IMG/VR virus record: IMGVR_UViG_3300044568_003008
Location: 1 to 24,327 of that record
Reading direction: 5' to 3' (one strand)
From: a virus
DNA: 24,327 bases
The notes below the pieces were generated by a model. It was not told the origin of the DNA. It saw only the letters and a program-made list of their open reading frames with translations, and searched no databases. The first letter of the stretch is position 1. Every line of letters starts with the position of its first letter. Of this stretch, positions 1,852-24,327 are shown piece by piece. The position numbers and the translations under genes were made by a program.

Positions 1852-2496
1852 TCAGATATACTCATATGGAGTTTTATATAGGATTTCATATTCTGCTTCA
1901 TTGAACCTCTTAACCGCCCACGAGTTTTGTTCTACAGGATAAAGCCATGGATTACGTTGTTTCCATTCATTAAAATATTCTTGATCTAAATTGTTTTCTT
2001 GGACAAATTTACCCGATACGATATCTTCAAATTCTATATTTTTGCAAAGTGGGTGAGCTTCAAATGGTTCAAAAACATTATATGCTAAACATCTTACTTT
2101 ATCTATAGGAGTGATATTATTACTTTCTATCCAAGTCGGGTCTGCTATTTTAAACCATCCATGATAATATCTTAGCCATCTATAAAGTTGACTTGTTCGA
2201 GTCAAAGTAGTTATAGCTATAATCTCCTCAAATATACTTAGGTCAGGAATAATAGATGGGTGTGCATGTGTGCATACCCAAGACGTATCATTCCCCCAAT
2301 CTTCGATTTTTTTATTCCATAAAGTTAAATCTAAATTTTTTTGTATGCTCGGCGAATCACCAAATTTAAATTCTTCATGATGCTGGCTTGAAACCCTGTA
2401 GGTAAATTGATGATGTTTTTCTAAATCAAAATTTTTATTTAATAAATTGCACAATAACCCGCCAGCAGTATTATTTGAAAAGCATATTAATTTCAT
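1852..2496 (-). CDS. Unknown protein, 214 aa, possibly P-loop sulfotransferase-like
   Basis: The protein starts MKLICFSNNTAGGLLCNLLN. A beta strand followed by a glycine-containing turn and a hydrophobic helix loosely recalls the phosphosulfate-binding loop of sulfotransferases, but the match is weak. Other visible parts are CTHAHPSIIPDL (about residues 75-86), a Trp/Tyr-rich stretch RWLRYYHGWFKIADPTW and a C-terminus rich in Tyr and Glu. There is no signal peptide or membrane segment. Its start overlaps the end of the SGNH-like gene by 26 bases, and it is clearly more AT-rich than the helicase gene upstream. It is the last gene before the late promoter at 1836-1843. Function is unknown; phage accessory genes of this size are often glycan- or virion-modifying, which is only a guess. 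Confidence 0.6.
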   Translation of the reverse strand: MKLICFSNNTAGGLLCNLLNKNFDLEKHHQFTYRVSSQHHEEFKFGDSPSIQKNLDLTLWNKKIEDWGNDTSWVCTHAHPSIIPDLSIFEEIIAITTLTRTSQLYRWLRYYHGWFKIADPTWIESNNITPIDKVRCLAYNVFEPFEAHPLCKNIEFEDIVSGKFVQENNLDQEYFNEWKQRNPWLYPVEQNSWAVKRFNEAEYEILYKTPYEYI

Positions 2497-3241
2497 TTTT
2501 TAAATTACTCCAAATTTGGTCTCGGTCTGGATCATAGGCAGTAAAATAGATTTTACTTAATCGATCATTGATTTGTTCTTGCACTGCGGTATCTAGTTTT
2601 ATATTTAAACCAGGTAATATTTTTTCAAAAATATATTTTGCATGTAAAAAAGGTCTTGGTTGTATATTATCGCCGCGTAGATCTGGATATAGATCAGACC
2701 ATTCACACATGCCTTGATTAAGATCTATCCAAGGTAATTTTTTTATATCTGGATAATTTTTATGTGAGGAATAATCAAAGGAATAAGTTAAAAAATATAA
2801 ATGTGGTATAGATAATTTATCTAACAAGCCAGATAGTGTAATCATGTATAAAATAGAGCGATTTATTGCCTGCTGTGATTGGATGTAAAATTCATTATAC
2901 TTAATAATATCTGGTAATTCTGATTTGCTAGAGCACCACCAACGCTGTTCAAAAGATTCTGCGATTAGGTCTCTGTATACGTCGTCTGTTTTTTGTAGAT
3001 CATCCCAGTTATCATCTTCTAAGAGTTTGTCAAATCTAATTGGGTGAGCCCACTGTATTAAAAAGGTATCTGAAAAAGTTGCAGTTAACGCAGACTTTAC
3101 TGCACAGTTAAAAATATATTCATTCCCGGCACCAATGTGTCCAAAATTTTTGACAGATGTTTGAATTATGGGTTCAAGTAATTGCGGCCATTCAGGCCAT
3201 ATATGCCCTGCGGCAAATCCATCGCCAAAGGTATAAATCAT
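2471..3241 (-). CDS. SGNH/GDSL-hydrolase-like protein with Gly in place of the catalytic Ser
   Basis: The 256-residue product opens MIYTFGDGFAAG, the place where SGNH hydrolases carry block I (GDSxxxG) with the nucleophilic serine. Here residue 8 is Gly (GGA codon) instead of Ser. Block III is visible as FGHIGAGNEYIF (33-44), with the Asn of the oxyanion hole. A candidate block V histidine is H200 in RPFLHAKYIF, preceded by D191. So the fold signature is there but the nucleophile is not, which suggests a binding protein or an altered enzyme. Similar GDS-type proteins are common in marine T4-like phages, where their role is unknown. It overlaps the helicase gene by 4 bases at its start and is more AT-rich than the helicase. 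Confidence is good for the family, low for any activity. Confidence 0.6.
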   Translation of the reverse strand: MIYTFGDGFAAGHIWPEWPQLLEPIIQTSVKNFGHIGAGNEYIFNCAVKSALTATFSDTFLIQWAHPIRFDKLLEDDNWDDLQKTDDVYRDLIAESFEQRWWCSSKSELPDIIKYNEFYIQSQQAINRSILYMITLSGLLDKLSIPHLYFLTYSFDYSSHKNYPDIKKLPWIDLNQGMCEWSDLYPDLRGDNIQPRPFLHAKYIFEKILPGLNIKLDTAVQEQINDRLSKIYFTAYDPDRDQIWSNLKNEINMLFK

Positions 3242-4629
3242 TCTACTTTTTTAAGACCAGCTAGCATGCTTTTTAGTTTTGTGCTGTCTACACTAGCATT
3301 AATTTTAGATGTGTCTTCTGCTGGGCTTACACTACTGCCAGTTTTGATCTGACTTAGGATATTAGTTGCGCCAACTCCACGCAAACCACTTTCTTGAGCT
3401 TCCTCACCTGGGTCTGTGATACGTAAGGTTTCTAAATCATACTCTAAGTCCACTTTCATCCCCACACCACTACTACTACGTGTTTTCATAAGTTGTAGTT
3501 GATAGCGACCGCGCTCACGCATAGCACGACTAGTAAAGATACCAAACACGTTATCTGCTGTGTTGATCTTACTTAATCCACCTGCGATGTGACTGTGATC
3601 AAATTCAATCTCTTCTACAGCGCCACGATTCAACTGTGAAGCAGTGATCATCAAGATGTTTAATTCTTTAGCCAAGTTACGCAGTTCTTCTGACACATAT
3701 TTGTCTTTGACAAATAGATCATTTGGACTGACTTTAGCACTCACAGGCATGACCAAGTCTAAGTAGTCTACCATGATAAAGTCTAGTTTCTTACCTGTCT
3801 GTATCTGTAGTTCTTTTAAGTAACTACGGATTTGATTTACATTTGACTGTGCTGGCATATATTTGATACGTAGGCTACCTGATTTCTTGCCTGTCATCTT
3901 GATCTTCATCTCAACTGTGTCTAGTTCCTTAAACACTTCTTTAGTTGAAACGTTAGCTACCATACTGTCCATACGCATAGCACATAGTCCTTCACTCAAC
4001 TCTAGACTTAGATATACACCGTTAAGTCCCTGTGTGACCCAGTTAATACTAATGTTCTGCATGAACAAACTTTTGCCTGATCCTGATCCACCCGCAAAGA
4101 TGTTTAACTCACCTCTGTTCATGCCACCAAATAAACGCTTGTCTAAAGTAGGCCAGCCTGTTGACACCTGTCCGTTGTTGGATTTAATCGCCATTAATCT
4201 TGCTCTGGGATCTTCAAAGTATTCTGTGCCTAGATCTTTAGTCAATGATATTTGAACCGCATCTTTGATAAGTTTTTCTACAGGATCATACTCACCTTTT
4301 TCCAACATATCTGCAGCTTTAAGGATAGCACGTTCAAGCTCATTACGTTTAGTAAATCCTTCAAACTCTGCTAGGAACCAACTATAATGATCTTCTGTAA
4401 GATCTGGCACTGGCTTACATTCCACACCTGTGACTGCTTTTACCTGTTCAGCAGTGGGCATGGCCTTGTGATCATCAGTGTGTGTCTTGATAAACTTAGC
4501 CACTTCGCGTAGGCTACGATCAAAGTTTTCTGGATTATAGATATTTTGCACACGCACATATGATTGTGCATCTTGTAGCATCATTTCTAAAAATAGTTTC
4601 TGTAGTTCTGGGCTATATTCTTTTGTCAT
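3238..4629 (-). CDS. 41: DnaB-type replicative DNA helicase (T4 gp41-like)
   Basis: This is the hexameric 5'-3' helicase that unwinds the phage replication fork and works with the primase encoded at 6441-7433. The 463-residue protein has a helical N-terminal domain (about 1-130) and a RecA-like motor (about 155-405). Walker A is GGSGSGKS (180-187), with a conserved lead-in STGWPTLDKRLFGGMNRGEL. Walker B is FIMVDYLDL (284-292). The DnaB motif ITASQLNRG is at 328-336, and the C-terminal motor part reads QLQLMKTRSSSGVG. The Ser/Thr/Lys-rich tail (about 420-463) may be the primase or loader contact. The length fits gp41 (about 475). The ATG at 4629 lies 3 bases beyond the SDR stop, and the end overlaps the SGNH-like gene in the ATGA fashion. 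Confidence 0.93.
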   Translation of the reverse strand: MTKEYSPELQKLFLEMMLQDAQSYVRVQNIYNPENFDRSLREVAKFIKTHTDDHKAMPTAEQVKAVTGVECKPVPDLTEDHYSWFLAEFEGFTKRNELERAILKAADMLEKGEYDPVEKLIKDAVQISLTKDLGTEYFEDPRARLMAIKSNNGQVSTGWPTLDKRLFGGMNRGELNIFAGGSGSGKSLFMQNISINWVTQGLNGVYLSLELSEGLCAMRMDSMVANVSTKEVFKELDTVEMKIKMTGKKSGSLRIKYMPAQSNVNQIRSYLKELQIQTGKKLDFIMVDYLDLVMPVSAKVSPNDLFVKDKYVSEELRNLAKELNILMITASQLNRGAVEEIEFDHSHIAGGLSKINTADNVFGIFTSRAMRERGRYQLQLMKTRSSSGVGMKVDLEYDLETLRITDPGEEAQESGLRGVGATNILSQIKTGSSVSPAEDTSKINASVDSTKLKSMLAGLKKVE

Positions 4630-4632
4630 ATA

Positions 4633-5292
4633 TTAATTATCAAATTTGTTAAAATCCTTATCTTCGGTTCCGTCTAAGAAAAACACACGACCGCTAGCAG
4701 TTTCATCTATAGATTCTATAAAATCTGTCATTTGTTTTATTCTAACATCATTATTAATAGATAGCAATTTATCTGGATTTAAACCAATGAAAATAGATTT
4801 GTTTTGTTTACTAAAATTTTTAAGTATCAGATAGTTTTGATATTTATTGCTAATATAATCAGCATATCCGATATGCTCATCATCATGATGATATACCAAA
4901 GGGCTCAACATCCAAACTATTTTATCTGAGGATTTTAATGTATGTATGATATGGAAGGGTAGTATGCAACTTACAAAATGCGATTGGCTCCAATCTTTTT
5001 CTAACTTCCACAAGTCTAATGTATTTTTATTGTTAATAAAATCAGTCGCATTTAATGACGATGAATTTTGATTAAAAAATATCAAATCAAGACTGGGTAA
5101 TTCTTTTAGAAATTTTTCAATCTGTGTTGGATTAATAGTTTTCCAATCAATTTTTAAATGATTTACGTTTGGATATTTTAATTCAGATCCCGATATAGAA
5201 TTCACGGTGTAACCCGTTGCTGATAGATGTTCTAATATTCCAAGACCAAATTTTGATCCACATCCAATCAATAAGCAATTTTTAGTTGTCAT
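4633..5292 (-). CDS. Short-chain dehydrogenase/reductase (SDR)-like protein
   Basis: The 219-residue protein begins with a Rossmann dinucleotide-binding turn, CLLIGCGSKFGLGILEHL, giving G10-x-G12-xxx-G16-x-G18. The SDR catalytic pair YxxxK is present as Y146-ISN-K150, with S130 in WMLS as the probable catalytic serine. The structural NNAG motif is altered (FFNQNS at 72-77). The rest follows the family: a helix after the YxxxK motif and a GLNPD loop. It is shorter than classical SDRs (about 250). Substrate is unknown. It starts inside the end of the radical SAM gene (11-base overlap) and ends 3 bases before the helicase start, so it is made together with both. Radical SAM plus SDR suggests a small modification or sugar/nucleotide-type pathway, which is inference. 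The gene is AT-rich compared with the helicase. Confidence 0.7.
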   Translation of the reverse strand: MTTKNCLLIGCGSKFGLGILEHLSATGYTVNSISGSELKYPNVNHLKIDWKTINPTQIEKFLKELPSLDLIFFNQNSSSLNATDFINNKNTLDLWKLEKDWSQSHFVSCILPFHIIHTLKSSDKIVWMLSPLVYHHDDEHIGYADYISNKYQNYLILKNFSKQNKSIFIGLNPDKLLSINNDVRIKQMTDFIESIDETASGRVFFLDGTEDKDFNKFDN

Positions 5293-6436
5293 ATACTAAT
5301 TCAGGAAATGTTTTAGTCCATTCAGTTCCTGCTTTCCTATCAATTGTTTCAAAATAATTTTGATAACTCGGCTGCCCGTTTTGGCGAACTTCTGTAATAC
5401 AATTATTAAGTTGTCCGACTAGGTTATAATTTTGATTGTATAAAGTTTGATGCGTTGTTAATTTTTCTAAAACTTTATCTTTAAGTTCTAGGGGTAGATT
5501 CCTACAGCGTAAATCGTCATGATCCATTTGACATTGATTAATAGTAAAATCATCGAATCCGTAATTCTCAATAAAAAACTCTTGAGTATCGGGAAGATAT
5601 AAAGCACTACCTACAAAAAATACACTATTCACCCTCCAGGTAAAGTGTGTTTTACTTAACTCGTTTAAATTTTTAATAAATTTATCCCAATCGGCACCTC
5701 TGCGAATATAGTTAAATCTTTCATCCATTGCATCTGAACTAATAGTAAATAATACATTTGGGAATTCACATAGTTCTTTAATTATCTGATTGTCTTGTTC
5801 ATACATCATATTAGTGTTTATGCGTATTTGAAATGACAGATCACGTCTGAGTTTTTTAAGTAATCGAAGATTGTGTTTAATTAATGTTGGTTCACCACCA
5901 CTAAGATATATTTCTTTTAATGTTTCTTGATTAGCTACTATATAATCAATTAATTTATCTGCTTGTTCAGTCGGAGTATGTAAAATTTCTTTGCCTTGTT
6001 CTTGCGCGATACTACTGCTTTGATTGCTCCAACAAGTGATACACTTTAAATCGCATATACTGCTCCAATGTAAATCTACCCCACGAAGTTTAAATTCTGC
6101 TAAATTATCATAATTAACATCTGCAGATTTAAACATTGTGTTATATAATCCTCTGATAAATTTATAATCGTCATTGTTTGTAACAATATTTTCATGTGAT
6201 TGACAAAACTTACAATTATCATCTAACACATCATTTACTAAATTTTTTTTAATTTCTAATAGGTCAGGATTAGCTAAAATTTCTTCAATGGTATTTTGAT
6301 TAAGATTTCCTAGAGATTTTTTACCATTTACACAAGTGGATATGTTTCCTCCCATGTCAACTTTAAAATAATTCCACGGGGCTGAGCAAAAATGATTAGC
6401 TTGCTTTAATAAGAAAAATTTACGTTTTGGGTCCAT
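5282..6436 (-). CDS. Radical SAM protein with N-terminal twitch/SPASM-like cysteines
   Basis: The protein has 384 residues. The radical SAM cluster motif CX3CX2C is at C128, C132 and C135 (ICDLKCITCW), followed by YLSGGEPTL with GGEP at 180-183, which contacts SAM. Four more cysteines lie ahead of the core: C17 in HFCSAPW, C35 in NISTCVNGK, and C75/C78 in DNCKFCQ. This is the arrangement of twitch/SPASM domains that bind a second 4Fe-4S cluster, here on the N-terminal side. The family acts through a 5'-deoxyadenosyl radical; the substrate here is unknown. Proteins annotated as twitch-domain radical SAM are known in marine phages, as I recall. The ATG at 6436 follows the primase stop by 4 bases. 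The gene is AT-rich, and it sits with the SDR gene between primase and helicase, which are normally close neighbours. Confidence 0.87.
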   Translation of the reverse strand: MDPKRKFFLLKQANHFCSAPWNYFKVDMGGNISTCVNGKKSLGNLNQNTIEEILANPDLLEIKKNLVNDVLDDNCKFCQSHENIVTNNDDYKFIRGLYNTMFKSADVNYDNLAEFKLRGVDLHWSSICDLKCITCWSNQSSSIAQEQGKEILHTPTEQADKLIDYIVANQETLKEIYLSGGEPTLIKHNLRLLKKLRRDLSFQIRINTNMMYEQDNQIIKELCEFPNVLFTISSDAMDERFNYIRRGADWDKFIKNLNELSKTHFTWRVNSVFFVGSALYLPDTQEFFIENYGFDDFTINQCQMDHDDLRCRNLPLELKDKVLEKLTTHQTLYNQNYNLVGQLNNCITEVRQNGQPSYQNYFETIDRKAGTEWTKTFPELVYDN

Positions 6437-15237: not shown

Positions 15238-15612
15238 ATGGAAGACAGTTACAAGAAACTCTTAGATCAATACCCGTTTATCAGCTATATTACCTATGGC
15301 GGTAATGACTATATTGGTATCATACAGAATTCAGACGAAGTTATAACCACTATCTATGACTATGCGGCTCTACGCACACTAGCGCAGAAGACACAGTTCT
15401 TAGCCCTGGCTGAACAATGGTGGTGGGAAAGCAATAGGCTAGTGCCTATCAATGTGTTTCTAAAGCAGGATTGGGTAGAATTCCGGGTCTGTTTAAAAAC
15501 ATTCAACAGCAAGGACGTAGCTATACAGCACGGGCCTTATGTTAGTCTAAAAGAAATAGCTCAGAAAAGAAGTAAAAGACGTAGTATTACGTTGGTTCGC
15601 AAAGTAAGTTAA
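15238..15612 (+). CDS. Conserved phage protein of unknown function, 124 aa (only plus-strand gene)
   Basis: The protein starts MEDSYKKLLDQYPFISYITY and contains YGGNDYIGIIQNSDEVITTI, EQWWWESNRLVPINVFL (about 61-77), VCLKTFNSKDVAIQHGPYVS and a basic end KRSKRRSITLVRKVS. From memory it is very close in plan to a hypothetical protein kept in most marine T4-like phages. The WWWESNR block and the basic tail are the distinctive parts; no enzyme motif is visible. It is divergent from the fibre operon across a 38-base gap, and its TAA (15610-15612) interlocks with the TAA of the GIY-YIG gene on the other strand at the shared TTAA. There is no strong ribosome-binding site before the ATG. It must have its own promoter inside the gap or within the start of the 14684-15199 gene. 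Confidence 0.85.
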   Translation: MEDSYKKLLDQYPFISYITYGGNDYIGIIQNSDEVITTIYDYAALRTLAQKTQFLALAEQWWWESNRLVPINVFLKQDWVEFRVCLKTFNSKDVAIQHGPYVSLKEIAQKRSKRRSITLVRKVS

Positions 15613-16235
15613 CGAGTAAGTTTTCTTTCAGCATAACTACGTTTTAGACTTTCAGAAATCTTTTGTTTTGTTTCTTGATTTGCTTTTTTACCCTTATTAA
15701 TTAAAGATAATTTTATCTTTGTTTCTTCTGAATGTTTTTTGCCAGGTTTTCCCTGTCGCTGCTGAGACATTTTTTCTTTTACTTCATTAGTTCTTTTTTT
15801 ACCTGTATTTGCTTCACTTAATTTTTTCTTTTGTTCTTCACTCATTGCCTTGCCTTTATTCCAAGGAATTCTTTTTTTAGCATATTCTGAGAGTGCCTTG
15901 CGACCTGTTTCTGACATCTTCTTTGGCTTCCTGAGTTTTGCTTTCCATTCTTCTGTAAAATTTGTAATTCTACCAGAAACCCCATCTCCACCATCTGTAA
16001 GATTTCTAAGTATTCCTGTTCCTATATCTTTACGACCATATTGTGCGATTAATTTTACTTCTAAATCCAAAGCTTCTTGTTCAGTAAGATTATTTTGAAG
16101 TATACAGATTCTTGACAAATCTGTTGGTTTAGATGTAACCCTGGTTGATGTCCAGGCTCGTTTGCCGGAACCTTTACCTATATAGTACGGAGTTAAATCT
16201 TCTCTAAGATAAGCATATACATAATATTTGTTCAT
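15609..16235 (-). CDS. GIY-YIG homing endonuclease with NUMOD3 repeats
   Basis: A site-specific DNA endonuclease, probably a selfish gene. The N-terminal 90 residues carry the nuclease signature: YVYAYLRED (5-13) and PYYIGKGSGKRAW (16-28) stand for GIY-YIG, with R26, and the metal-binding Glu is E59 in LDLEVKLIAQYG. The C-terminus (about 120-208) holds basic DNA-binding NUMOD3-type repeats: NKGKAMSEEQKKKLSEA, GKPGKKHSEETKIKLSL and NQETKQKISESLK. The open frame extends to a TTG at 16262, but the ATG at 16235 starts directly with MNKYYVYAYL, as expected for the domain, so I chose it. The gene lies just after the mini-DnaE gene and meets the plus-strand gene tail to tail. It is more AT- and Lys-rich than its neighbours, which fits an invader. 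Confidence 0.9.
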   Translation of the reverse strand: MNKYYVYAYLREDLTPYYIGKGSGKRAWTSTRVTSKPTDLSRICILQNNLTEQEALDLEVKLIAQYGRKDIGTGILRNLTDGGDGVSGRITNFTEEWKAKLRKPKKMSETGRKALSEYAKKRIPWNKGKAMSEEQKKKLSEANTGKKRTNEVKEKMSQQRQGKPGKKHSEETKIKLSLINKGKKANQETKQKISESLKRSYAERKLTR

Positions 16236-16262
16236 ACAAATATTTAGCATTAATGCGTCCAA

Positions 16263-16835
16263 CTAGCATTTTTCGTCAAGTAAATTTAAGTTAACAATTA
16301 CTAAATGTGCGTAGGCACAAGAATGAGCCTTTTTGAAGCTGTAGCCGTCCTCTGTTTTATCCCAAACAGTTTCAGCAACTTCTTTCCAAGACTTACCTAT
16401 TAGGTGCCTCTTTGCGGGTCTGATGACAGCCAAAAACATCATTAATCGTGTCACAGAGTCCACAGGCTCTGGCATTTTAAGCAAGGTATCGTAGTGATTG
16501 TTGATGTGTATCAATTGACCGCAAATCGCAGGATCATATAACTTGGTCCAATCGGGTTCCTGCATGAGCTTGATCAAATGTGTTTCACTCTTAACCTGTT
16601 TATATACATGAACATTTAGTAAGTCTAGTTTCATATAGCCACGCTCTTCTGCCGCCTGATAGTCTAAACTAGCTGATCCTGAGAATGGATCTACGGGTAT
16701 ATCTGTGGCGTATACTCCTGTATTATGGCGAGTTAATCGACCATCACGGATAATACTAGCTGGTGTTACATTTAACAAGTCTAATACCTGTTGACGATCA
16801 GCGAAGTCTATGTCGATGTCTGATTTAAATTTCAT
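16263..16835 (-). CDS. Mini-DnaE: C-family DNA polymerase palm-like protein, 190 aa
   Basis: The protein looks like a condensed DnaE (Pol III alpha, about 1160 aa in E. coli). Numbered from the ATG at 16835: KSDIDIDF (4-11) matches the DnaE motif PDFDVDF, which holds catalytic D401 and D403. RHNTGVYATDIPVD (36-49) matches the RHAAGVVI loop, and AEERGYMKLDLLNV (62-75) matches EAAGLVKFDFLGL, with D71 in the place of catalytic D555. Later IRPAKRHLI and YSFKKAHSCAYAHLVIV (165-181) match the RPGP and FNKSHAAAYALL stretches. The PHP, thumb and clamp-binding parts are absent. A TTG at 16847 would add four residues; the ATG leaves a normal 11-base overlap with the methyltransferase gene. Related proteins occur in cyanophages as hypotheticals, as I recall. 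Whether it polymerises is unknown. Confidence 0.72.
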   Translation of the reverse strand: MKFKSDIDIDFADRQQVLDLLNVTPASIIRDGRLTRHNTGVYATDIPVDPFSGSASLDYQAAEERGYMKLDLLNVHVYKQVKSETHLIKLMQEPDWTKLYDPAICGQLIHINNHYDTLLKMPEPVDSVTRLMMFLAVIRPAKRHLIGKSWKEVAETVWDKTEDGYSFKKAHSCAYAHLVIVNLNLLDEKC

Positions 16836-17535
16836 TCCGTAACCCAATAAACTTTTTATCTACCATTTGATTCGATTCCACATGCCATTCCCATATATGA
16901 TCAGGTAGGTCTTTAAAATCATTAAAGTTATAGTTTTTTAAATTTACTGCCGCTAGAATCATTCGTTGTCTTAGATCTTGATAAAACGCTTTAAAATAAA
17001 CTATTTTCCAACCATATACAGATAAACAATCGTCGATCCATTTTAAATTAGGTGCACCTACTAATATTTTATCATATCCATTATGCCCGTTTCGCACATT
17101 ATCAGTTTGTTCAACACACCAATCTATACTAGGCAAAGGTGTTTCCGGTCCAAATTCAGTTTCTAATATAATATGTTTTGCTTTGCTTTCACAGATAGTT
17201 TGCAATAATAAATTATGATCAGCGATATGATAAAACATTCCAAAAGTAACTACGGTATCAACATTTTTTAAAAATCCAATCATTTGATCTTTATTGCACG
17301 CATCTCCTGTAACATAATCAACATTATCAAAATTTAACGATTTAGCCAACTTTATAGATTGTTGAACCAAATGTTCTCTTGGTTCGACTCCAATGACTGT
17401 TTTTGCACCATATTCACTACAACAGATACTGCTTTCACCTGTATGTGATGCCAAATCTAAAACGTGCTGATCTGCCAGCATAAATTCTAAACTTTTAGGC
17501 ACAAAAAATTCAAAATCTGAATTGCGAAATTTCAT
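16825..17535 (-). CDS. Class I SAM-dependent methyltransferase
   Basis: The 236-residue protein shows the Rossmann-type methyltransferase series: motif I VLDLASHTGESS (25-36), acidic end of strand 2 VIGVEPREH (47-55, E51), YVTGDAC (74-80, D78) and the motif IV region VDTVVTFGMFYHIADH (92-107), followed by HIILETEFGP (121-130). The C-terminus (DLRQRMILAAV, HIWEWHVES) is unlike common DNA methyltransferases, and there is no DPPY or PCQ motif, so a small-molecule, glycan or RNA target is more likely than DNA; the HIADH loop resembles CmoB-type enzymes slightly. It starts within the stop of the 62-residue gene upstream (ATGA). It is AT-rich compared with the flanking conserved phage genes, so it is probably an accessory insertion. 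Confidence 0.8.
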   Translation of the reverse strand: MKFRNSDFEFFVPKSLEFMLADQHVLDLASHTGESSICCSEYGAKTVIGVEPREHLVQQSIKLAKSLNFDNVDYVTGDACNKDQMIGFLKNVDTVVTFGMFYHIADHNLLLQTICESKAKHIILETEFGPETPLPSIDWCVEQTDNVRNGHNGYDKILVGAPNLKWIDDCLSVYGWKIVYFKAFYQDLRQRMILAAVNLKNYNFNDFKDLPDHIWEWHVESNQMVDKKFIGLRNEI

Positions 17536-20018: not shown

Positions 20019-21476
20019 TTATTGCCAATCTGTCTTTTCTACGACAAATGGGTAGTTAGCCTCCTTGTAAAATTGCTTTCTTTTTGTTAGATGCCGTTTG
20101 GCAAATTTGCATGTAGACGTTATGTCCCAGATCTGCACGAAATCTTTGTCTTCAGCTTTACGAATACCTCGACCAATTGACTGGATAACTCGAACAAAGC
20201 TCTTACCAGGCTCAACAAGCACAAGATTAAAAATACGAGGAATATTGATGCCAACAGCGGCAACACCATAAGTGGCAACAATAACTTTGTCATCCATCGT
20301 CGCAACATCGTCATATTGTTCTTTCCTATCATCTGCTTTAGTTCCTCCCGAAACGAATACTGCATCTTTAATTTTTTCTATTAATGCCTTACCTGGAGCA
20401 ATACGATCTACTAGGACTAGTGTATTACCACTTTTACGTATTGACTCTACTAACTGTGCGATATAGTCTAACCGCCCTTCTGTTTCTAATAGATATCGTA
20501 ATTCACTTTGATAATCTCGATATTCCACATGATCAACTAACTGTAGGACATTTACATGGCAGTTAGCTAACACGCCCTGTGATTGTAATTCACTGGCACT
20601 AAGACGGCCAATAACGTCTCCTATCGAACACTTTAGGCTGACAAATTCGTAATCTTCTTTAGGAATCGTGCCAGTTAATCCCCAACGGATAGGTATATGT
20701 GCCATTACCCCAGTAAGCAGAGTTTTCAGCGCATCTGCTTTGGCCATATGCACTTCGTCAACCATGACACAGACAACATCTTGTAGGAACTCGCCAATGG
20801 TGATGTCCACTTCATGATTGCGTGACCCTTTGAGTAAGATGTTCAAACTCTGCCAAGTGCAGATAGTATGTGTGCGACCAAACTCTTTACGGTCTCCAAA
20901 GTAAACACCGACATCTAGGCCCATGTTGATATAATCAGCTTCTGTCTGTGTGACTAATGATTTGTTTGGAACGATCACTACAGTCCTGCCATGTGGTTCA
21001 CAGCAATAACTCAATGCGGCAGTGATTAGTGTCTTACCTGCACCTGTGGCTACTTCCTGTAGGCATTGTGGATTAGCCAAGAACTTATTGATGATTTCAA
21101 CTTGATAATCACGCAATACGATTGGTTGTCCTGCCATAGGATGTTTAGCAGGCCAATTAATATGTTTGAATGTATCTTCTGTTACTTCTTCAAAGTCATA
21201 CTGTGTTTTATATTCACGCAGATCTTCTAACTCTAAACTGTAGCCCTGTTGATCTAAGTAAGGAATGATCTCTGGCAATAGGTTAACATAGGTGCTACCG
21301 CCCAATTGGAAGAACGCTACCTTACCATCCCAGCGACCTAGACGGACTGCGGGCAAATAGCGAGCACCTGGTATCTCATACTTAAACTTGTTTGAAAGTT
21401 CTTTGCGTTCATGTAGATCAAGTCCTTCTATCTTTACATTGACTTCGTCTTTGATTATCAGTCTTGCCACTGCCAT
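20019..21476 (-). CDS. uvsW: UvsW-type ATP-dependent DNA/RNA helicase
   Basis: UvsW is the T4 superfamily-2 helicase that unwinds branched recombination intermediates and R-loops and switches replication from origin- to recombination-driven. The 485-residue protein has the UvsW N-terminal domain (about 1-100, with PGARYLPAVRLGRWDGKVAF) and then the motor: Q-motif region LRDYQVEII (121-129), Walker A ATGAGKT (143-149), DEVH (240-243), LTGT (267-270), VATYGVAAVGINIP (400-413) and motif VI QSIGRGIRK (432-440). The length is close to T4 UvsW (503). Its ATG shares one base with the TAA of the molybdopterin enzyme gene (TAATG), so translation is coupled. It is expected to be made in the replication phase. 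Confidence 0.95.
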   Translation of the reverse strand: MAVARLIIKDEVNVKIEGLDLHERKELSNKFKYEIPGARYLPAVRLGRWDGKVAFFQLGGSTYVNLLPEIIPYLDQQGYSLELEDLREYKTQYDFEEVTEDTFKHINWPAKHPMAGQPIVLRDYQVEIINKFLANPQCLQEVATGAGKTLITAALSYCCEPHGRTVVIVPNKSLVTQTEADYINMGLDVGVYFGDRKEFGRTHTICTWQSLNILLKGSRNHEVDITIGEFLQDVVCVMVDEVHMAKADALKTLLTGVMAHIPIRWGLTGTIPKEDYEFVSLKCSIGDVIGRLSASELQSQGVLANCHVNVLQLVDHVEYRDYQSELRYLLETEGRLDYIAQLVESIRKSGNTLVLVDRIAPGKALIEKIKDAVFVSGGTKADDRKEQYDDVATMDDKVIVATYGVAAVGINIPRIFNLVLVEPGKSFVRVIQSIGRGIRKAEDKDFVQIWDITSTCKFAKRHLTKRKQFYKEANYPFVVEKTDWQ

Positions 21477-23551
21477 TATTGAGTTTTCCTAATATTTGCA
21501 AATACTAATTTATATTGTGGATTTAAATAATCTCTATTTTTATTATTAGTCAGTCTATTAATAATAGCATGATTAGCTATTCTTATCAACCCCGCTTGTA
21601 GATTTTTATCTTCTCGACATTTTATTACGATTTCAGCTGAATCTGTTTCTAAAATTACCAGGTCATTATTACTGAGTGATAGCTGTAACATATCATGACT
21701 ACTAATTTCTAATATTGGTTGATTAATATTTGGAATAATATTATTCACAGCATCTCTTTTCCGGTATCCACATTGTAAAATAAATTTATAGTTTGGATCA
21801 GACAGTTGAAATTTATTTAATTTTAACGTTGATAAAAAATAGCCCGGAGTTAGATCAATAATAGAATTTGTTTTTTCAGATTGAAAGTTTGTTATTACTT
21901 TTCCGGTTGAATTTAATTCATCTGCTAACTTATCTGACAGAACTATTGATTGAGCAGTAGTATATTTTTTCTTCGATAATAAAAAAAATTTCCACCACAT
22001 TATAGGTATTACAAGATTTTTATATCTATTTCCTATTACTTTATTGAGTGTATAATAAACATCTGGAATTTTGTTGTTATATCTTTCAAATAGGCAATCA
22101 TAAAATGCCACTTGATTTTTATCAAATAATAATTTAAATTCATCTAACTCTTTATTATCAATCAGAGATAATTTTTCTAAGATCAATTCATAAATTTCGA
22201 TAACTGTTTTTGTGCTATTTAAATCGATTATAGGCTCACTTAATTGTGCAATTTTATTGCTAATAGTAGAAACCTCATAACTTTCAAAAAAGGTTTTTAC
22301 TGGTAAAATATAATCTGCAGCATCTGTAGATTGTGTTTGAAAACTATCTAACGCAATAACGATATCAACATTTTCTAGTTGAGATTTGAATTTATCGCTG
22401 TTGGGGAATCTTCCTATCGGATTATTATTATCAATAATAACACAATGGAATTTTTGATTCTCATTGATGTATAGGTTATCTCCGATTAGTGATGAAGAAG
22501 TCACTCCACCAAATTGTTTTTGATTTCCAAAAGGCACATGTGTTTCTGTGAAATAATGATTGCTGATCATACCGGGATCTATAGGATCCGATATTATATT
22601 CATACCACCAACTTTTTGGTAGTTTCCGGTTAATGTATATAATAAAATAATTAAATAGTTAACGGCAAATGGATTCAGTGAGTGGCATGTTCCGTTACCA
22701 GAATTTACAGAAACACTAGTGCTTGAATTAATTATCTTTGCTAGATTATGTAATTGTTCAACCGGCACTCTACAAATATTCAAGCATTCTTCAATATCTA
22801 CATTAGAAAAATATGTTTTTATTTTATCATAGTTTTTAGTCTGTTGGCTTATGTATTCATAATTTATATAATCATTTTCTATCATTATCTTAATTAATGC
22901 CGATAGTAACCAAGCATCTGTCCCTGGGGCCGGTTTAACATATACATCAGCCATATCTGATGTATCAGTTTGGCAAGGATCAATTACAATTAAATAGCGA
23001 TTGGGATCGTTACTGAGATCGTTTAATATTTTCCTTGCACGTGGATAGTGTTGGGTAATCCAGGGATTTTGACCGATTACAATATGCGCTTGTGAATTCT
23101 TTATATCGGCATGCGGAAGGGATCCAAAAAACATGCTATTAACCATTGATGGATAGATTTTTTCCATAGAAAAAACATTACTGACATATTTGGCGCCTAA
23201 TCTTCTAACTAACTCATAAGTATATTCGCCGCGATGATCTGGCATTGCTGATGCCATGTAAAATATTTTTGACCTGTCGATTTTTTTTAATCTAACGGCT
23301 ATTTCATCTAGAGCCTGCTCCCAAGAAATACACACAAATCCTTTATCAGTTTTTTTCATGGGTCTAGTAATTCTATCTGGACTATGTTGGAACCCAATTA
23401 ATTTTTGTGCCTTCTCGCAAATATAGCCTTGGCTCACTGGATCATCAAAATCGGGAATTATTTTAACAAATTTATTATCCTGAATCGTGACTTTTATTCC
23501 ACAATGTGCCGCACACAAACGACAAAATGATTTTTTAATTATTTGTGTCAT
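21476..23551 (-). CDS. Molybdopterin oxidoreductase, DMSO reductase family, with 4Fe-4S domain
   Basis: The 691-residue protein has the full architecture of a Mo-bisPGD enzyme. The N-terminal 4Fe-4S domain reads CRLCAAHC (10-17) and GYICEKAQKL (42-51): C10, C13, C17, C45, with K47, the usual lysine between cluster and pterin. ISWEQALDEIA (75-85) follows, then VKPAPGTDAWLLSALI (205-220), NPIGRFPN (377-384) and QSTDAADYILPVKTFFE (407-423), all family signatures, and a C-terminal dinucleotide-binding barrel (about 560-691). No Tat signal exists, so it is cytoplasmic. No Cys lies between 75 and 192, so the usual Cys/Sec Mo ligand is absent; Ser, Asp or none is possible. Substrate is unknown, and no electron-transfer partner or cofactor genes are in the window. 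The ATG at 23551 is preferred to a TTG at 23593. The gene is very AT-rich. Confidence 0.9.
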   Translation of the reverse strand: MTQIIKKSFCRLCAAHCGIKVTIQDNKFVKIIPDFDDPVSQGYICEKAQKLIGFQHSPDRITRPMKKTDKGFVCISWEQALDEIAVRLKKIDRSKIFYMASAMPDHRGEYTYELVRRLGAKYVSNVFSMEKIYPSMVNSMFFGSLPHADIKNSQAHIVIGQNPWITQHYPRARKILNDLSNDPNRYLIVIDPCQTDTSDMADVYVKPAPGTDAWLLSALIKIMIENDYINYEYISQQTKNYDKIKTYFSNVDIEECLNICRVPVEQLHNLAKIINSSTSVSVNSGNGTCHSLNPFAVNYLIILLYTLTGNYQKVGGMNIISDPIDPGMISNHYFTETHVPFGNQKQFGGVTSSSLIGDNLYINENQKFHCVIIDNNNPIGRFPNSDKFKSQLENVDIVIALDSFQTQSTDAADYILPVKTFFESYEVSTISNKIAQLSEPIIDLNSTKTVIEIYELILEKLSLIDNKELDEFKLLFDKNQVAFYDCLFERYNNKIPDVYYTLNKVIGNRYKNLVIPIMWWKFFLLSKKKYTTAQSIVLSDKLADELNSTGKVITNFQSEKTNSIIDLTPGYFLSTLKLNKFQLSDPNYKFILQCGYRKRDAVNNIIPNINQPILEISSHDMLQLSLSNNDLVILETDSAEIVIKCREDKNLQAGLIRIANHAIINRLTNNKNRDYLNPQYKLVFANIRKTQ

Positions 23552-24134
23552 CAAAGTATTCGTGTATTTCTGGCCAAAATCTACTTGAAACAATTAATCG
23601 TGTATTTGAATTATTATTTTCTGCTCGATGCGGTATACATACATTGACCCAGGCCGGGTTTTCTACGTTCCATCTTCCAATTTCTATAGCCTCATCGGAT
23701 TCAAATCCACGAGCAGTTGCCCACCCAGTTACTGGTTCATCATCAAAGTAGGCTTGCGCATTAGGTTTTGTGGCATTATAAAATACAGTGTAACTATCTT
23801 CACAATTCATCACTGGCAGATTTAAGGCGTAACTTCTAGTTTGCCAATCTTCTGTATCAACGTGAATTGGGCTATCGATTAATCTTTTGTCTCCGTTTGT
23901 GCCTATAAAAATACACGATGTCCATTTTTCGTATAATTTTAAATCTTTTAGAAATTGTATGTAAATAGGAGCATTATCTCTTACGATATCTTTATCAAGA
24001 TAGGTAAATGTAAATCCACGATCTTTAAAGATATTAGAATAATGATGTTTGTATATATTTTCAAATTCTTTTTTAATTTGTTCGAGATTATTTACATGAA
24101 CTGGCTTATACAGCCAAGTTGGTTTAGATATCAT
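23535..24134 (-). CDS. 2OG-Fe(II) oxygenase-like protein, 199 aa
   Basis: The protein carries the iron-binding triad of the double-stranded beta-helix fold: H91-x-D93 in SPIHVDTED and H169 in VCIPHRAEN, with R179 (NTRLIVSSRF) in position to bind the carboxylate of 2-oxoglutarate. Between them are the strands YALNLPVMNC (102-111) and YTVFYNATK, and the WVNVCIPH strand leads into the last histidine. Proteins of this plan are common in marine T4-like phages and are of unknown substrate. It overlaps the start of the molybdopterin enzyme by 17 bases and starts 2 bases after the upstream stop. Protein, nucleic-acid or small-molecule hydroxylation is possible. The family call rests on motifs only; a non-enzymatic cupin-like protein is the alternative. 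Confidence 0.68.
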   Translation of the reverse strand: MISKPTWLYKPVHVNNLEQIKKEFENIYKHHYSNIFKDRGFTFTYLDKDIVRDNAPIYIQFLKDLKLYEKWTSCIFIGTNGDKRLIDSPIHVDTEDWQTRSYALNLPVMNCEDSYTVFYNATKPNAQAYFDDEPVTGWATARGFESDEAIEIGRWNVENPAWVNVCIPHRAENNNSNTRLIVSSRFWPEIHEYFDDTNN

Positions 24135-24136
24135 GA

Positions 24137-24327
24137 TTAATTTTTGTTCCTTAGTTTCGAATCTGTAAGATATATGATACGTTCAGCACGCTGTGTCCAA
24201 CTCATGCGCTTTCCTCCAAACATCATCTCAAATGTAGTCACCAACAAGGGCACAGGAAAATCCCAGGTTGCAGGAATCTTCTGAGCATATACTACTTTAA
24301 CACCATATGGGTCATATTCGCTAGTGC
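24137..24327 (-). CDS. Conserved phage protein, C-terminal 62 residues only
   Basis: I translated this by hand from the window edge to the TAA at 24139-24137. The visible end contains EYDPYGVKVVYAQKIPATWD, FPVPLLVTTFEMMFGG and KRMSWTQRAERIIYLTD. The residues are well-formed coding sequence with a GC content like the core phage genes, not like the AT-rich gene that follows. I recall a similar C-terminus in proteins of unknown function from marine T4-like phages. The 5' part lies outside the window, so neither start nor function can be given. Confidence 0.7.
   Translation of the reverse strand, partial: TSEYDPYGVKVVYAQKIPATWDFPVPLLVTTFEMMFGGKRMSWTQRAERIIYLTDSKLRNKN

Follow-up and report, generated by a model that had tools for sequence, protein, structure and literature searches.

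A putative molybdenum/tungsten oxidoreductase of the MopB superfamily carried as cargo upstream of uvsW in a phage lineage

A MopB gene coupled to uvsW

The IMG/VR virus record IMGVR_UViG_3300044568_003008 (positions 1 to 24,327; these 24,327 nucleotides are hereafter the window) carries, directly upstream of the DNA-repair helicase gene uvsW, an open reading frame (ORF) for a 691-amino-acid (aa) protein of the MopB (dimethyl sulfoxide (DMSO) reductase) superfamily, the type that combines a [4Fe-4S] cluster with a molybdenum or tungsten bis-pyranopterin guanine dinucleotide (Mo/W-bisPGD) cofactor. The ORF starts with ATG and contains no internal stops. As described in the original prediction, which was made from the letters of the window alone, its stop codon overlaps the uvsW start in TAATG (CAATAATGGC), and its start shares 17 bp with the upstream ORF 23535-24134; MopB is translationally coupled to uvsW. 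The locus comprises the following features.

20019..21476, minus strand: uvsW helicase, right-hand border of the slot (PHROGs and Pfam; TAATG junction)
21476..23551, minus strand: phage MopB ([4Fe-4S]/Mo-bisPGD-type) oxidoreductase gene, 691 aa (ORF, Pfam, AlphaFold2 model with PDB matches, homologs in 12 phage contigs)
21536..21772, minus strand: C-terminal dinucleotide-binding domain PF01568, residues 594-672 (Pfam score below the cut-off; profile and fold support)
22223..23374, minus strand: Molybdopterin domain PF00384, residues 60-443 (Pfam)
23162..23164, minus strand: codon of E130 in the Mo/W-ligand column, Sec/Cys in formate dehydrogenases (profile alignment to 9t1s; Glu in 62 of 62 rows)
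23411..23524, minus strand: [4Fe-4S] motif C10-X2-C13-X3-C17-X27-C45 with K47 (translation; Cys and Lys invariant in 62 sequences)
23535..24134, minus strand: predicted 2-oxoglutarate (2OG)-Fe(II) oxygenase, 199 aa, overlapping the MopB start by 17 bp (conserved triad; fold match of a modest model)
24137..24325, minus strand: last 62 codons of a conserved gene of about 371 aa, left-hand border of the slot (complete in contig L007 and, in the same order, in 47 further uvsW contigs)

Two Pfam domains score above their cut-offs, namely, PF00384 (E-value 1e-22; 81 bits against 24) and the Fe4S4 domain PF04879 (2.7e-11; 43.7 bits against 22.7). The N-terminal CX2CX3CX26-28C motif with a downstream Lys or Arg is present as C10/C13/C17/C45 and K47, exactly as predicted. 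The AlphaFold2 model of the protein (predicted local distance difference test (pLDDT) 90.7, predicted template modeling score (pTM) 0.91) matches formate dehydrogenases, periplasmic nitrate reductase and acetylene hydratase in the PDB with Z scores of 31-34 over about 600 residues (VIA-align), and the matches span residues 1-691, including the C-terminal dinucleotide-binding domain. Given these full-length fold matches, membership in the MopB superfamily is firm, and a bound Mo/W-bisPGD cofactor is predicted.

The formate dehydrogenases 1aa6, 9t1s and 7qv7 are among the best PDB sequence matches. However, none of the NCBIfam equivalog cut-offs is approached: the protein scores 193 bits against 666 for the formate dehydrogenase alpha subunit (TIGR01591), 136 against 1100 and 54.6 against 904 for the nitrate reductases NasC and NapA, 72 against 778 for DmsA/YnfE, 112 against 694 for PhsA, 20 against 1465 for TorA, 74 against 470 for NuoG, and 106 against 440 for QrcB.

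A cargo slot in phage genomes

Homologs of MopB were identified in 12 other viral contigs, from 11 other IMG metagenome identifiers, for a total of 13 contigs (those named here carry L numbers, as do cellular loci). A scan of viral contigs with the window protein alone gave no match because the patterns were too specific, but alignment queries succeeded: an IMG/VR alignment scan yielded ten contigs, a second scan added L177, and a uvsW scan added the truncated L024. The full-length homologs show 39-55% identity to the window protein. In all 12 contigs, MopB is located directly, or at most three genes, upstream of a uvsW gene that is 79-97% identical to that of the window, and in 10 of these, the other neighbor is the same ~371-aa gene, the exceptions being L009, where the upstream gene differs, and L024, where the contig ends. 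The joins at 21476 and 23535, which had been flagged as possible assembly breaks, were checked in independent contigs, and no contig-join artefact is indicated. The 114 kb contig that holds L011 also encodes ribonucleotide reductase, the terminase large subunit, the tail sheath and virion proteins. Thus, as expected of an auxiliary gene, MopB is found inside phage genomes, between phage genes, in 13 contigs and is homologous to a family of cellular metabolic enzymes.

The site between the two borders is variable. In 43 of 47 further contigs with both borders, the ~371-aa gene abuts uvsW with nothing in between, and several of these empty sites keep the same TAATG junction; the other four contigs have different cargo, for example, an Asp/Arg-hydroxylase-type oxygenase (L072) or a B12-binding radical SAM protein. 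The slot thus accommodates cargo while retaining stop-start coupling to uvsW. The B12-binding radical SAM protein (610-624 aa) replaces MopB upstream of uvsW in L021 (1237-3111) and L028 (3-1835). Downstream of uvsW, a second variable slot is occupied by a radical SAM protein of about 500 aa in L015 (12587-14083), L013 (9335-10816), L021 (5702-7216) and L177 (11036-12547).

The nearest named relatives of the window uvsW, with 52-55% identity, come from the jumbo phages Sinorhizobium Phosso and Agrobacterium Atu_ph07; the Phosso region contains no gene annotated as a MopB-type enzyme. The assignment of MopB to a replication operon is loosely apt: the strand that carries uvsW also carries the genes for a DnaB-like helicase and a primase, although long tail-fibre-like genes are found on it too.

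Phage MopB is under purifying selection, with ratios of nonsynonymous to synonymous substitution rates (dN/dS) of 0.08-0.27 in close pairs (L010/L011/L012), and with dN of 0.21 and dS of 1.0 in the L015/L177 pair, which lends indirect support to a putative activity during infection. The GC content of the window gene (0.30) and that of its third codon positions (GC3, 0.22) are below those of neighboring core genes (core GC3 0.34-0.39); the GC3 matches that of other cargo genes of the window, which encode radical SAM, SDR-like, methyltransferase and oxygenase proteins (0.21-0.24).

A remodeled branch of an uncharacterized cellular family

The nearest cellular proteins are 24-31% identical to the window MopB and belong to an uncharacterized family of stand-alone 'molybdopterin-dependent oxidoreductases' from Pseudomonadota (Gammaproteobacteria including Burkholderiales; Bradyrhizobium), Myxococcota, Acidobacteriota and Actinomycetota; examples come from Shewanella frigidimarina (L097), Limnohabitans (L103) and a Bradyrhizobium plasmid (WP_248890028.1). 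The family is sparse: among 398 genomes drawn from the phylum of the Shewanella relative, four matched at an E-value of 1e-80, the Shewanella query relative included, and nothing in this draw was closer to phage MopB. A tree of 56 proteins places all nine phage rows in a single clade, with a Shimodaira-Hasegawa-like approximate likelihood ratio test (SH-aLRT) value of 100 and a stem of 2.7 changes per site, distant from the outgroup formate dehydrogenases; as the outgroup branches are long, the rooting of this clade against the cellular family is tentative. In an Agitococcus metagenome-assembled genome (MAG), the MopB gene is closely followed by that of a divergent paralog (L138, 9768-12122).

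In the profile alignment, E130 aligns, without gaps, with the selenocysteine of 9t1s, an F420-dependent formate dehydrogenase, and Glu occupies this metal-ligand column in all 62 rows, phage and cellular, which makes E130 a candidate metal ligand. In characterized enzymes of the superfamily, the metal is bound by Ser, Cys, Sec or Asp, and arsenite oxidase has no such ligand; we found no literature on a glutamate ligand in such enzymes. The next column, that of the catalytic His in formate dehydrogenases, holds Lys in all cellular and most phage rows, and the segment with the formate-binding Arg (Arg/RGQNN) is missing. Thus, the combination that marks a formate dehydrogenase, a Sec/Cys ligand, His and catalytic Arg (Sec140, His141 and Arg333 of FdhH, residue numbers that we take as established), is lacking. 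Of the claim that the protein contains all signature blocks of the superfamily, the full-length Mo-bisPGD/4Fe-4S architecture stood, but the ligand column holds Glu and the formate dehydrogenase Arg motif is gone.

Of the alignment columns, 39 are fixed across phage and cellular rows, among them K47, the Fe-S cysteines and presumed pterin-site residues; a further 44 vary in cells but not in phages. The cellular metal-site signature, Q104-G105-N106 and Q129-E-K-T-G-x-x-W136, is fixed in cells, whereas the phages keep only the Glu and, mostly, the Lys. With this signature replaced, the phage proteins are a separate branch rather than strict members of the cellular stand-alone family. Among the cofactor-scaffold residues that are invariant in phages are G160, N162, D191-P192, G210, D212, N377-P378, D402, N665 and D674, which, judging from what is known of the superfamily, presumably contact the pterins. 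The simplest reading of these patterns is that the cofactor scaffold is retained in the phage proteins and the substrate side is remodeled.

Potential redox partners and the adjacent oxygenase

Phage MopB starts directly at the Fe-S motif, without an N-terminal export extension, so that an exported form is unlikely, and there is no respiratory subunit gene beside it. With neither an adjoining subunit gene nor an export extension, the earlier suggestion that the enzyme redirects respiratory electron flow is unsupported. In some cellular relatives, the gene directly downstream encodes an FdxA-type ferredoxin (L103-L106 and L117), an FAD/NAD-binding reductase (L097 and L147) or, in others, an SDR or PhyH oxygenase. 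The ferredoxin and reductase neighbors suggest a soluble, ferredoxin- or flavin-coupled enzyme, and by this analogy, a soluble reaction appears more likely than a respiratory role. Overall, neighbor conservation is weak: in 80 cellular loci, we found a TetR-like regulator in 16, a ferredoxin in five and an FAD/NAD reductase in two.

The ORF 23535-24134 has no match in a Pfam scan, but four relatives all share its HxD...H...R triad (H91, D93, H169, R179), and the model of its product, of modest quality (pLDDT 73), matches 2OG-Fe(II) prolyl hydroxylases, so that the label 'oxygenase-like' in the original prediction was reasonable. Such a gene precedes MopB in the window, L007 and L008; a different oxygenase occupies the slot in L013, L015 and L024, of the Asp/Arg-hydroxylase type in both that were scanned; and 6 of the 13 contigs (L009-L012, L014 and L016) have MopB without an adjoining oxygenase. 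The pairing is frequent, not obligatory. In two gammaproteobacterial MAGs, an oxygenase gene overlaps the MopB stop (L100, 8238-9014, PhyH family; L107, 6856-7449, near-identical), a cellular parallel to the phage layout.

Interpretation and alternatives

It seems likely, if far from certain, that this gene encodes a stably phage-resident member of the Mo/W-bisPGD superfamily, which a lineage of large myophages carries as cargo, with uvsW on one side and the ~371-aa gene on the other. The product is probably a cytoplasmic auxiliary redox enzyme that is linked to ferredoxin or flavin and borrows the molybdenum cofactor (Moco) of the host. Such a protein would stay in the cytoplasm and load Mo(W)-bisPGD made by the host; its single cluster would exchange electrons with a soluble ferredoxin, or ferredoxin/flavin reductase, of the host, of the kind encoded next to some cellular relatives, and the enzyme may oxidize or reduce a small metabolite by two electrons in a pocket unlike that of the cellular enzymes. 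What the original prediction observed is confirmed, and its interpretation is partly supported: the proposal of an auxiliary metabolic gene that relies on a host cofactor probably holds.

Several observations weigh against this scenario. Ferredoxin or reductase neighbors are found in just 7 of the 80 cellular loci. Searches for MoaA-type (MoaA C-terminal domain) and Fer2 genes gave no match in nine phage contigs; as each of these is a fragment, whole genomes could differ; host provision of the cofactor and partner is assumed from this absence. The Molydop_binding domain PF01568 is marginally under its cut-off (7e-5; 23.2 bits against 26.8), Glu is an unusual metal-ligand residue, and two phage rows lack the adjacent Lys. 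Finally, the L008 copy (2286-4373) is broken into 500 and 178 aa; the L007 copy is intact, though its uvsW and oxygenase genes show the same identity levels to those of the window as the L008 genes do, and the broken copy is either a pseudogene allele or a sequencing error.

A more specific form of the proposal is that phage MopB is a new type of Mo/W enzyme in which the metal-position glutamate and a phage-specific pocket support a redox step beyond those of the host enzymes, for example, in a modification pathway with the 2OG oxygenase, using host Moco and ferredoxin. We put this forward only tentatively.

Among the alternatives, MopB and the adjoining oxygenase might act as a pair in phage-directed modification of a nucleobase, glycan, peptide or lipid rather than in energy metabolism. 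This would fit the two oxygenase families that share the slot with MopB (window, L007/L008, L013, L015 and L024), the B12-radical SAM enzymes (L021 and L028) and the Asp/Arg-hydroxylase type (L072) that the slot also accepts, and the overlapping PhyH oxygenase of L100/L107. However, the six contigs in which no oxygenase adjoins MopB speak against obligate pairing, and 2OG-Fe(II)-type oxygenases are common phage cargo; we regard this idea as doubtful. We consider it unlikely that MopB is non-catalytic, akin to NuoG of complex I or QrcB, with the fold and the Fe-S cluster kept for electron transfer or binding and Mo chemistry lost. The unusual Glu, the loss of the cellular metal-site residues in phages and the weak C-terminal Pfam score would be compatible with such a protein; against it, the NuoG and QrcB cut-offs are far off, and the cofactor-scaffold residues, with their presumed pterin contacts, are invariant in phages, which a protein without the cofactor would not require.

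Acquisition from a host of a known enzyme type, that is, formate dehydrogenase or nitrate, DMSO or thiosulfate reductase, is improbable. The formate dehydrogenase alpha subunit, NasC and PhsA give the top NCBIfam scores, the matching PHROG is labeled DmsA, and the fold matches include formate dehydrogenases and periplasmic nitrate reductase. However, all three scores are far below the cut-offs, Sec/Cys and the catalytic His are replaced by Glu and Lys, the Arg/RGQNN segment is missing, and the outgroup formate dehydrogenases are remote in the tree. The score cut-offs and the active site jointly rule out formate dehydrogenase, nitrate reductase and DMSO reductase identities, and the comparison with known formate dehydrogenases and nitrate, arsenate or DMSO reductases in the original prediction gives way to a phage branch of an uncharacterized cellular family, with Glu in place of Cys, Sec, Ser or Asp.

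An assembly join of host and phage DNA, or a recent, functionless stray capture, which the low GC and GC3 and the broken L008 copy might suggest, is rejected, in agreement with the original prediction, given the same uvsW-linked arrangement in 12 independent contigs, the deep phage-only clade, purifying selection and a GC3 equal to that of other phage cargo genes.

The probable presence of such a cargo enzyme suggests that phages of this group may alter host redox chemistry during infection. The products of many known phage auxiliary genes are small or simple enzymes; here, a 691-aa enzyme that would depend on a labile, multi-component, host-made cofactor is under selection across a diverse phage clade, which implies that complex redox chemistry in infected cells is of benefit to these phages. 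According to the literature searched, this type of enzyme has not yet been studied in any virus. MopB is a concrete protein for expression, the family-wide Glu at the metal position poses a testable chemical question, and the phage clade draws attention to the uncharacterized cellular family of which it is a remodeled branch.

Other variable regions of the window

The low-GC cassette at 4633-6436, which lies between the genes for the DnaB-like helicase and the primase, is another cargo slot; it carries an SDR-like ORF together with the gene for a radical SAM/SPASM protein that exceeds its NCBIfam cut-off (N_Twi_rSAM). Next to the helicase gene, at 1852-3241, are two further low-GC ORFs, of 214 and 256 aa, with no Pfam or NCBIfam match; these represent cargo as well. 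A 194-aa DNA-polymerase-like fragment (phrog_11778; 16263-16847) adjoins an ORF that is predicted to be homing-endonuclease-like (15609-16262), and the polymerase gene may be split.

Comparison with known systems

The original prediction knew of no characterized phage member of the superfamily, and none was found in the literature searched; related phage annotations do exist. PHROG 7800, 'dimethyl sulfoxide reductase DmsA', is a MopB family within a phage sequence library and matches the window protein with an E-value of 2e-40; however, the alignment covers only the N-terminal two thirds (residues 4-465), and its members may be prophage or contaminated records. Molybdenum enzymes or their partners have been mentioned in phage genomes and virus contigs, namely, for a pelagimyophage group, a 'formate dehydrogenase' (PMC7029224); among the listed auxiliary genes of Microcystis viruses, a 'molybdopterin oxidoreductase' (PMC12542629); and, for phage RXM, an FdnB-like protein (PMC8953757); but these are short annotation mentions without analysis of a clade, locus, selection or active site. 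No GenBank phage record exceeds 31% identity to the window MopB, and the matches there were set aside as phage evidence because they resemble host DNA (Acinetobacter, Salmonella and Listeria bins, and bacterial genome records). The viral structure library BFVD holds no full-length match to the model, and we found no literature that places phages in DMSO-reductase-superfamily phylogenies or describes a conserved phage MopB clade, its locus or its active site.

Among characterized enzymes, the formate dehydrogenase H-like and F420/hydrogen-dependent carbon dioxide reductase (HDCR) enzymes (1aa6, 9t1s and 7qv7) share with phage MopB the fold, the single [4Fe-4S] motif and two pterin-binding halves, and differ in the active-site residues and the equivalog score, as detailed above. 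The periplasmic and assimilatory nitrate reductases (2nap and NasC) share the fold (Z score 32) and the single-cluster architecture, whereas phage MopB lacks a twin-arginine translocation (Tat) signal, and the ligand Cys is replaced. The cellular stand-alone family is alike in domain order, the [4Fe-4S] motif, the Glu in the metal-ligand column, a conserved C-terminal domain and the lack of an obligate partner subunit, but its members are longer, at about 750-790 aa, compared to 654-708 aa in phages. What is new here is a phage-specific, remodeled branch of this uncharacterized Mo/W enzyme family.

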